Shown piece by piece: positions 18,199 through 58,332 of a DNA stretch of 64,000 nt. Under the pieces are notes generated by a model. The model was not told where the DNA came from and did not search any database. It saw nothing but the letters and a program-made list of their open reading frames with translations. Each line of letters opens with the position of its first letter. The stretch's first letter is position 1. Position numbers and translations under genes: made by a program. Source of the stretch: Cystobacter ferrugineus (GTDB lineage Bacteria; Myxococcota; Myxococcia; Myxococcales; Myxococcaceae); the NCBI RefSeq assembly GCF_001887355.1, contig NZ_MPIN01000009.1, positions 186,001-250,000 on the forward strand, read 5' to 3'.

Positions 18199-18203
18199 CA
18201 GAC

Positions 18204-18241
18204 GGGGACTCCGCTCCCCCGGGCAGAGGAGCGGAGTCCCC
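18204..18241 (-). terminator. terminator of the tolC-RND operon
   Basis: A perfect 14-bp stem (GGGGACTCCGCTCC at 18204-18217 with 18228-18241) and a 10-base loop. On the minus strand a T5 tract lies just beyond it (A-run 18194-18198). It starts 7 bases after the tolC stop. Confidence 0.85.
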
Positions 18242-18248
18242 GGGTACG

Positions 18249-56082: not shown

Positions 56083-57456
56083 CTATAACGCAGAGCCCCC
56101 GGGCATGCCCGTGCCAGGAGGCAGCGCCCAGAGATACAGCCGTACAGCGCCCGCGTCCGGCGAATTCCACACCCCTGGCACCCAGAGCACCCCCCCCCCG
56201 GCGTCCGTGACGACCGGCACCCGGTCCCGGTGCTCACGGGGAACGCGGCCGTCCACCAGCACGTCCTGCAGCTTCCGGGAGCCGGCGGGACCGCGCACCC
56301 TGTCTCCGGCGCGGCGCGTCCTCACCGTGAGCGGCCACCGGGTTTCCTCCCGCAGCGGCAGGGCGAGCGCCCCCGGAGGCGGTGTCCCGGACCCCACCCC
56401 GAAGTGCCATTGCGTTCCGGGCTGGATGCCCTGGCTCCCCTCCCCTTCCAGGACCAGGCAGGCCACCGCCTCGCCTGCGGGCTCCTCCCGGCGCACGCAG
56501 CGCACCCGTCCCCCCATGGCCATGAGCCGCAGGCCCCCCGGCACATGCCCCCCGCGCAGCGTCACCGTCCCCCCCTCCGCCACCGCGTCCAGCACCCGGT
56601 CGAGCGAGGGCCCATCCACTTCCGCTCCCACTCCGGTCATCAGGCGGACGAGCACCCGGCGGCGCAGGGCCGGCTCCAGGGCGCGCACGCCCACCGCGTC
56701 CAGACTCCCATCCGGCAGCACGAGCCGGCCCCAGGCCTCGTCGGCCAGGCGGGCGAGCAGCGCCTCATCCTCGGCCGCCACGCGGGTGAAGGCCGCCAGG
56801 TGCGGCACCACGGAGAAGCCCACCGCCGCGGAGAGCGCGGGCAGCAGATCGTGCCTCAGCCGCGCCCGGAGGAAGGTCCGATCCTCGTTCATGCCGTCAT
56901 GCACGAAGCCCGTGCCCTGCTCGGCGAGAAAGGCCTCCACCTCCTCGCGCGTATACCCGAGGAGCGGGCGAACGAGCGCGGGACCCGCCCGGTGGATGCC
57001 GATGGCGCCGCGCAGGGCGGTGCCTCGCAGCAGCCGCATGAGGAGCGTCTCGGCCTGGTCCGTCGCCGTGTGCGCCGTGGCCACCACTCCCAACCCACGC
57101 TCGCGCCGCAACGCCTCCAGCGCCGCGTAGCGGGCGTGCCGGGCCCGCTCCTCCACCCCCGGGCCCCGCCGCAGGCCCAGCTCACGGACATGACACGGCA
57201 GTTCCCACCGAGCCGCCAGCCGGACGACCGCCTCGGTGTCCCGCCGGGCCTCGGGCCGCAGACCATGATCGAGCGTGGCCACCTCCACCCGCAGCGACAG
57301 CGCCTCGCGCACGAGCGCCGTTCCCACCAGCAGGGCGCACGAGTCCGCGCCCCCCGAGACGGCCAACAGCACCGAGCCTCCCTCCAGGCCGAGCTGGCGG
57401 TAGCACCCCGAGAGGTTTCGCGAAAACAAGAGGCTCTTCTCACCCATGACCGGCAT
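56083..57456 (-). CDS. tilS: tRNA(Ile)-lysidine synthase
   Basis: A 457-residue N-type ATP pyrophosphatase that modifies C34 of tRNA-Ile(CAU). The PP-loop is AVSGGADSCALL, followed by ATLDHGLRPEARRD, ERARHARYAAL and ATAHTATDQAETLLMRLLRGT. The C-terminal substrate-binding region is present, with LPLREETRWPLTVRTRRAGDR. It lies upstream of ftsH, as in many delta-proteobacteria. The exact start (57456 or 57447) is uncertain since no clear Shine-Dalgarno is visible. Confidence 0.93.
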   Translation of the reverse strand: MPVMGEKSLLFSRNLSGCYRQLGLEGGSVLLAVSGGADSCALLVGTALVREALSLRVEVATLDHGLRPEARRDTEAVVRLAARWELPCHVRELGLRRGPGVEERARHARYAALEALRRERGLGVVATAHTATDQAETLLMRLLRGTALRGAIGIHRAGPALVRPLLGYTREEVEAFLAEQGTGFVHDGMNEDRTFLRARLRHDLLPALSAAVGFSVVPHLAAFTRVAAEDEALLARLADEAWGRLVLPDGSLDAVGVRALEPALRRRVLVRLMTGVGAEVDGPSLDRVLDAVAEGGTVTLRGGHVPGGLRLMAMGGRVRCVRREEPAGEAVACLVLEGEGSQGIQPGTQWHFGVGSGTPPPGALALPLREETRWPLTVRTRRAGDRVRGPAGSRKLQDVLVDGRVPREHRDRVPVVTDAGGGVLWVPGVWNSPDAGAVRLYLWALPPGTGMPGGSAL

Positions 57457-57529
57457 CGAACACGCGGGGGAATCAGAATCGCGCGGGCCGGGTTACACCA
57501 GATGCGGCTGGTTGAAGCAGCCGAAGACG

Positions 57530-57757
57530 ATTCCTATGCTCTTCACTGGGGGTCGCGACGGTCGGGGAAAAGAGGACGGGGGTGGGAATGGCCGAGCGGC
57601 TCGAAGGGTTACAATGATGGATTTTCAACGGAGTTGGGCCTAGGGGTCCCCCCCCTCCCCCTCTGGGCCCACGGGGCCGCTGGGACACGTCCTGGCGGTC
57701 CTTCTTTCCGGAACGCCCCGGATCCTGCCTGCCAGGATCCGGGGCGTTCTCTTTTCG
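57530..57757 (+). ncRNA. candidate small RNA ending at a strong terminator
   Basis: The only plus-strand transcript that the terminator at 57711-57753 could end is non-coding and must begin after the tilS start. The 5' end given is a guess. A short hairpin is visible just upstream (GGCTG with CAGCC, 57509-57525). The alternative is an attenuator in the leader of the RHH genes. Expression data would decide. Confidence 0.3.
57711..57757 (+). terminator. strong intrinsic terminator with no upstream gene
   Basis: A perfect 17-bp stem: GAACGCCCCGGATCCTG at 57711-57727 with 57733-57749, a 5-base loop, then TCTTTT and a further T7 at 57762-57768. It points along the plus strand. Confidence 0.85.
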
Positions 57758-57898
57758 CGGGTTTTTTTCGCACACGCGGAATACCCGGCGGCATACGGTG
57801 GGGACACACTCCTAAACCGTTGACCCGTCAGGAGGTCTGTCGGATAACGGCTCCAGTGTGTTCAGGTCGTCACCTCGTATCCGTTCCGGAGACCCAGG

Positions 57899-58111
57899 AT
57901 GGCAGGCACCGACAAGCGCAAGCAGTCCCTCTACTTCCCCGAGGAGATGCTCAAGGAGATCCAGGAGGAAGCCAACCGCCAGGACCGTTCGCTCTCGTGG
58001 GTCGTCCAGCAGGCCTGGAAGATCGCTCGTGACCGCATCAAGTCGTTCCCCGCCGTCAACGACGTGACGGGTGACGAGCGACAGGACCCACGTGAGGAAG
58101 GAAGGTCCTAA
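57899..58111 (+). CDS. small ribbon-helix-helix protein, myxobacterial family (copy 1)
   Basis: A 70-residue protein. RKQSLYFPEEMLKEIQEEA forms the strand and first helix, and RSLSWVVQQAWKIARD the second helix of a ribbon-helix-helix fold (MetJ/Arc type). Very similar small proteins are widespread in myxobacteria (a TIGR04563-like family, from memory). It would bind DNA as a dimer. The acidic tail differs from the copy that follows 5 bases later. Targets unknown. Confidence 0.85.
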   Translation: MAGTDKRKQSLYFPEEMLKEIQEEANRQDRSLSWVVQQAWKIARDRIKSFPAVNDVTGDERQDPREEGRS

Positions 58112-58116
58112 AACCC

Positions 58117-58332
58117 ATGGCCGCCACTGATCATCGAAAACAAAGCCTCTACTTCCCCGAAGACATGCTGGATGAAATCCAGCGCGAGGCGACGCGGCAG
58201 GATCGCTCGCTGTCGTGGATCGTCCAACAGGCCTGGAAGGTGGCCCGAGGCGATCTGCGCAAGATGCCCTCGCCCAACGATGTCTTCGGCGCCCCGCCGC
58301 CCCGCGCCGACGGCTCGTCGGACGGGACGTAG
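58117..58332 (+). CDS. small ribbon-helix-helix protein, myxobacterial family (copy 2)
   Basis: A 71-residue paralogue of the preceding gene: RKQSLYFPEDMLDEIQREA and RSLSWIVQQAWKVAR are conserved, while the start (MAATDH) and the Pro-rich tail differ. It is clearly a tandem duplicate in the same transcript, ended by the hairpin at 58344-58378. Confidence 0.85.
   Translation: MAATDHRKQSLYFPEDMLDEIQREATRQDRSLSWIVQQAWKVARGDLRKMPSPNDVFGAPPPRADGSSDGT

Follow-up and report, generated by a model that had tools for sequence, protein, structure and literature searches.

A candidate small RNA gene with a conserved C-rich hairpin loop and an ECF-type promoter-like motif beside tilS in myxobacteria

The window analysed in this work, a 64-kb stretch of DNA from Cystobacter ferrugineus, contains a 442-bp gap that separates the tilS gene, on the minus strand, from a pair of TIGR04563 genes on the plus strand. 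An earlier note on this DNA had pointed out a perfect 17-bp stem with T-tracts in the gap, oriented along the plus strand and preceded by no gene, and had proposed that it either ends a small RNA or acts as an attenuator in the leader of the downstream genes. The features of the locus are as follows.

56083 to 57456, minus strand: tilS, encoding tRNA lysidine synthetase, the divergent neighbour (TIGR02432 and TIGR02433, both above cut-off).
57585 to 57589, plus strand: GGAAT, resembling the −35 element of ECF-type (SigH/SigR-like) promoters.
57608 to 57610, plus strand: GTT, −10-like, 18 nt after GGAAT and fitting the consensus GGAAT-N18-19-GTT.
57618 to 57757, plus strand: proposed small RNA of about 140 nt, both ends placed from the promoter motif and the terminator.
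57633 to 57672, plus strand: SL1, conserved hairpin, in which the stem strands 57635-57646 and 57660-57671 enclose a C-rich apical loop (57647-57659).
57652 to 57659, plus strand: CCCCUCCC, the invariant part of the SL1 loop and putative pairing seed.
57673 to 57702, plus strand: SL2, hairpin of 13 pairs in the fold of the window sequence, followed by a weak T-tract (TTCTTT, 57702-57707).
57711 to 57755, plus strand: SL3, intrinsic terminator (17-bp stem plus TCTTTT), with a second T-run at 57762-57768.
57820 to 57825, plus strand: TTGACC, 3′ of the terminator, probable −35 element of a separate promoter of the RHH-like genes.
57899 to 58111 and 58117 to 58332, plus strand: two TIGR04563 (RHH-like) genes, both above the family cut-off and outside the RNA gene.

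The terminator described in the earlier note was borne out by the sequence, the fold and a stem scan. The two strands of the SL3 stem (57711-57727 and 57733-57749) form 17 Watson-Crick pairs out of 17 around a five-nucleotide loop (57728-57732), and after the stem come TCTTTT (57750-57755) and a run of seven T (57762-57768), the latter beyond position 57757, where the end had previously been placed. No other perfect stem with a loop of 3-10 nt in the 64 kb scanned is as long, and no such stem of at least 12 bp was found in ten windows generated by a first-order Markov model. The predicted folding energy of the 57690-57770 segment was −42.5 kcal/mol (z = −5.7), a value equalled by none of 200 shuffled sequences. 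SL3 was retrieved with a purpose-written stem scan, and was not listed by a simple rule-based terminator scan. Positions 18203-18242 of the window contain another perfect stem (15 bp, 10-nt loop), which has no T-tract after it.

The earlier statement that no gene precedes the terminator also held. A mechanically called 65-aa ORF (57446-57643) matched no NCBIfam or Pfam family at E 0.001, and its homologs show insertions and deletions of one or two bases within the C-run, so a coding role was rejected. ARAGORN identified no tRNA or tmRNA in the window.

Comparison of the 442-bp gap with other genomes produced matches in 40 out of 59, its own genome included, and many of the weaker matches spanned the SL1 hairpin alone. 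The most conserved part of the gap was SL1 (57633-57672), located upstream of the terminator and absent from the earlier note. Judged from sequence, the SL3 terminator is only the 3′ end of a larger object, a putative small RNA gene of about 140 nt. The SL1 loop (U-C8-U-C3) is C-rich and exposed in the predicted fold; the loops of SL2 and SL3 are CACG and CCUGC, SL1 being the only hairpin with a C-rich loop. The octamer CCCCUCCC was identical in all 36 distinct SL1 sequences compared, and the C-run preceding it varied in length.

Evidence for SL1 as a paired RNA element came from covariation. Among the 36 distinct sequences, two-sided changes were observed in 9 of the 12 pairs (42 cells vs 9.2 in shuffled alignments), and 98.8% of the pair cells corresponded to standard pairs, a value that dropped to about 64% when the partner was slid by one column. 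In a larger alignment of 81 distinct sequences (A1), a U-G pair at columns 15-39 was present in 64 sequences and a G-U pair at columns 18-36 in 79. Conserved U-G and G-U combinations pair only as RNA, so an RNA is favoured and the alternative of a DNA palindrome bound by a protein was rejected. The analysis of the three helices in 62 Myxococcaceae-type sequences revealed paired cells at levels of 100%, 90.6% and 97.9% for SL1, SL2 and SL3, respectively, and two-sided changes in 12 of the 39 pairs (119 cells vs 34 in shuffled alignments). In this set SL2 was the weakest helix, unpaired at one position in 22 sequences and at another in 27, with two-sided changes in 6 of its 13 pairs. In Anaeromyxobacter-type sequences and in several other families the T-tract directly follows SL2 and SL3 is absent, indicating a minimal gene made up of SL1 and a terminator. 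In the window, the long form may give rise to two RNA ends.

The distribution of the element was determined with patterns and with a covariance model. A 26-mer from SL1, searched with up to three mismatches in a phylum sample of 195 genomes, was present as a single copy in each of 91 genomes, all of them from the order of the window, and the reversed pattern gave no match in the 195. The covariance model R1, built from the 81 distinct sequences and run with stricter search filters at the cost of some weak matches, scored 98.4 bits in the window and matched 128 of the 195 genomes: 126 of the 145 in the order, including the own genome, and 2 of the 50 outside it. The earlier note had named a lack of conservation outside the terminator stem as grounds for dismissing its reading; SL1, which lies outside that stem, is conserved in these 126 genomes, so the reading was not refuted on this ground. 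One of the two matches outside the order (G163) combines a C-loop hairpin, a hairpin with a T-tract and a divergent tilS gene, and looks like a true relative on the basis of these sequence features. The other one (G064) and a match inside the order (G006) are weak, have neither tilS nor the C-loop, and were rejected. R1 gave no match in 19 of the 145 genomes of the order, some of them 97-100% complete (such as G113, 100%, and G049, 99%, along with G022 and G040), which points to losses, to divergence, or to a poly-C stretch missing from some assemblies.

An exact-pattern scan of a named genome collection (84,980 species) retrieved 51 stretches, 47 of which bear a myxobacterial label (Myxococcus, Corallococcus, Pyxidicoccus, Archangium, Hyalangium, Citreicoccus, Anaeromyxobacter, or a metagenome-assembled genome assigned to Myxococcales, Myxococcaceae or Archangiaceae). 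The other four are labelled 'Proteobacteria' (L168 and L200), 'Deltaproteobacteria' (L183) and 'Comamonas' (L173). The last label, Comamonas sp. KCTC 72670, is probably wrong, as its contig is equal in length to one of G142, a member of the window's family.

Examination of the region upstream of SL1 revealed a promoter-like motif, first spotted by eye in 58 of the 114 distinct loci compared. The pattern GGAA(A)T/C-N18/19-GTT was present in 90 of 114 distinct upstream regions, a figure that describes conservation and is not a probability, since the motif had been picked out by eye beforehand and related genomes are not independent. With spacers of 14 to 23 nt the motif was found in 98 regions, and in 16 of the 114 it was missing at any spacer tried. 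Control searches yielded 0.79 regions on average, and never more than 4, in 200 rounds of letter shuffling, and none in the reverse complement. The combination of promoter motif and SL1 occurs once in the genome. A strict terminator within 120 nt after SL1 was likewise identified in 90 of the 114 loci (2.55 in shuffles, none on the other strand) and was not found in the remaining 24. At the sequence level, then, the conserved promoter motif and the intrinsic terminator looked for as marks of a stand-alone small RNA gene were each found in 90 of the 114 loci. These locus counts were drawn from 60 + 70 genome matches, a part of all matching genomes, after removal of duplicates; they omit the rejected matches (L156 of G006 and L157 of G064) and the second SL1 copy of locus L106, the promoter count skips loci with too little upstream sequence, and the locus of G163 (L155) was left out of the promoter count and kept in the synteny count.

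The motif upstream of SL1 is equal to the SigH consensus GGAAT-N18-19-GTT given in PMC10012870, and the small RNA is probably switched on by a stress-type (ECF) sigma factor, to judge from this motif. Among 28 genomic matches for a SigH/SigR-like ECF sigma gene, the clear best (G000:C5:754998-755555, locus L304) reached 179.6 bits vs 96.4 for the next best, and stayed below the curated cut-off of 251.55. No GGAAT/C-N16-20-GTT sequence was detected in L304 around this gene, so the search links no sigma factor to the small RNA promoter. A reading frame with an HxxxCxxC motif, which we take to be like that of a zinc-binding anti-sigma factor, follows the sigma gene in L304.

The sequence comparison as a whole shows the RNA structure, the conserved loop, the synteny, the promoter-like motif and the terminator, and from these we infer transcription itself, the sigma factor, the pairing with mRNA and the stress signal. 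The reading that we favour, and consider reasonably likely, is that of an ECF-controlled, stand-alone, trans-acting small RNA whose anti-Shine-Dalgarno-like loop pairs with G-rich ribosome-binding sites. According to this model, a stress-responsive ECF sigma factor of the SigH/SigR type, together with RNA polymerase, would start transcription just after position 57610, and termination at SL3 would give a 3′ end near 57757. The RNA would fold into SL1, with its U-C8-U-C3 loop exposed, then SL2 and then SL3; the SL1 loop, which contains CCUCC and is in this respect like the anti-Shine-Dalgarno end of 16S rRNA, would pair with several mRNAs at ribosome-binding or leader sequences that are G-rich (GGGAGGGG-like), and this pairing would alter the translation of those mRNAs under stress. 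More tentatively, and with a good deal of doubt, the RNA might be a core riboregulator of Myxococcales, encoded beside tilS by one gene per genome, whose loop would compete for G-rich ribosome-binding sites with 16S rRNA, thereby coupling an ECF stress sigma factor to broad translation control in bacteria without Hfq.

A functional precedent for such a role, by its description, is GsrN of Caulobacter, which carries six tandem C in its 5′ loop, is under the control of sigma-T and pairs with the G-rich leader of katG (PMC5869019). The C-rich exposed loop expected from a likeness to GsrN is present in SL1 (U-C8-U-C3, folded and covarying), and control by an ECF-type general stress sigma factor, as in GsrN, may apply here too, given the motif in 90 of 114 regions. 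They differ in terminator, neighbours and loop, and the promoter motif of the present RNA is GGAAT-N18/19-GTT.

Searches for mRNA targets gave an excess of candidates over reversed patterns. In the own genome, GGGGAGGGGG-N2-11-ATG matched 22 times vs 7 for the reversed pattern, with six matches leading ORFs of at least 100 aa; in three genomes, GGGGAGGGG-N4-9-ATG matched 70 times vs 18, and 41 of the 70 led ORFs of at least 60 aa. Such an excess is expected from ordinary Shine-Dalgarno sites and is no evidence for targets. BLASTP comparison at 1e-5 among these 41 ORFs of the three genomes detected one related pair, within the own genome, and none between genomes.

The lack of shared mRNA targets among these three genomes fits the strongest of the alternatives, in which the C-rich loop would bind a protein instead of mRNA, the RNA acting as a sponge or scaffold for, e.g., a poly-C-binding or translation factor. 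In addition, a seed for changing targets would not require the constancy observed over the entire loop, and M. xanthus, described in the available text of PMC5684412 as having no hfq homolog, is likely to use other partners. On the other hand, GsrN and NfeR1 use their C-rich loops for pairing, as far as the parts of those reports at hand describe, and this RNA has no known protein partner. We consider protein binding rather unlikely.

The neighbourhood of the gene was compared across loci. The tilS gene was divergent and upstream of SL1 in 114 of 114 distinct loci, and a TIGR04563 relative was located downstream in 85 of the 109 loci with at least 950 nt of downstream sequence and absent in the other 24, indicating that the RNA is tied to the tilS end and not to the RHH genes. 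Where the RHH gene is present, on the same strand as the RNA, TTGAC was found within 150 nt upstream of its start in 88 of 88 loci, a raw count without a chance control; TTGAC combined with the −10 rule of this analysis was present in 9 of the 88. With a downstream gene in only 85 of 109 loci, a TTGAC upstream of that gene, and a conservation of SL1 loop and stem that does not depend on its presence, a leader or attenuator of the TIGR04563 genes is unsupported and, in our view, very improbable. Altogether, the small RNA half of the earlier proposal gained support from conservation, covariation, synteny and the promoter-like motif, and its leader half did not. The two TIGR04563 proteins of the window have 70 and 71 aa, and one of them is highly conserved, being 100% identical in some other species; no paper using the TIGR04563 name was found in the literature searched.

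Known small RNAs were also considered as relatives. Pxr, a developmental small RNA of myxobacteria, is likewise a three-stem RNA with a C-run in its SL1 loop, consisting of seven C (PMC5568312, PMC5684412), and the present RNA could be regarded as a diverged paralog of it. However, the Pxr model (RF01812) gave the stretch 19.2 bits vs a gathering score of 80, and the pxr copies are located on a different contig, where R1 gave none of their four loci more than 9.4 bits. In addition, Pxr is described in the available text of both reports as limited to Cystobacterineae and adjoining a two-component system, and the genes found here are tilS and TIGR04563 instead of nla19 / pxrR-pxrK. Pxr further differs by its separate locus, its four tandem copies in the genome and its reported sigma-54 promoter. 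Membership was rejected, and paralogy appears extremely unlikely. The four copies correspond to tandem RF01812 matches with C7 loops at G000:C8:51241-52323 (L001-L004), one above the gathering score and three below, and tandem pxr paralogs have been described for Cystobacter (PMC5568312). The Pxr literature bears on loop function as well: Pxr loses its function upon a C-to-A change in the loop (PMC5568312), and the predicted contact with the likely target pxrA lies mainly in SL3 and not in the C-loop (PMC11928866), which counts against the C-loop pairing model.

The chance that the RNA is a true member of the alpha-r14 family (RF02344) is close to nil: this was the best Rfam match, spanning the whole model (33.2 bits, E 0.00016), but it failed two defining tests, with a score below the gathering value of 58.8 and no gathering match in 18 homologous loci, and with a C-rich loop in one hairpin of three where alpha-r14 carries CCUCCUCCC unpaired in all three. 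What both share, as far as PMC10746234 describes alpha-r14/NfeR1, is the set of three hairpins and an unpaired, anti-Shine-Dalgarno-like C-rich sequence, the loop sequence itself being different; NfeR1, with its anti-Shine-Dalgarno motifs, is thus a precedent for pairing through a C-rich loop.

Runs of C in hairpin loops are also a feature of the 6C RNA of actinobacteria. That RNA differs in having two C-loop hairpins, and it gave no gathering match in the window and was absent from the list of matches at E ≤ 10 for 57400-57920. No Rfam 15 family reached its gathering score in the window or in the 18 homologous loci, so that the RNA would form a new family. By its sequence features it is apparently a strongly conserved gene for a small RNA; its kind is known, and its family is, as far as checked, undescribed. 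The literature searched, including the available text of the Pxr papers, makes no mention of it, and a transcript may be listed in the 2020 survey of M. xanthus non-coding RNAs by Whitworth and Swain, cited in the review PMC8538405. Pxr was the only myxobacterial small RNA with a studied function found in that literature. Compared with Pxr, the present RNA is more widespread and usually single-copy; its loop octamer is invariant and its ECF-type promoter motif is conserved. Its wide distribution, octamer and promoter motif make it well suited to deletion, northern and pairing experiments in the genetically tractable M. xanthus, and it would allow the action of a C-loop small RNA to be probed where, according to the available text of PMC5684412, no hfq homolog is known.

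At locus L106 (G035:C55:28288-28472), two SL1 copies stand in tandem, each with its own hairpin and T-tract, and the RNA gene is thus locally duplicated.
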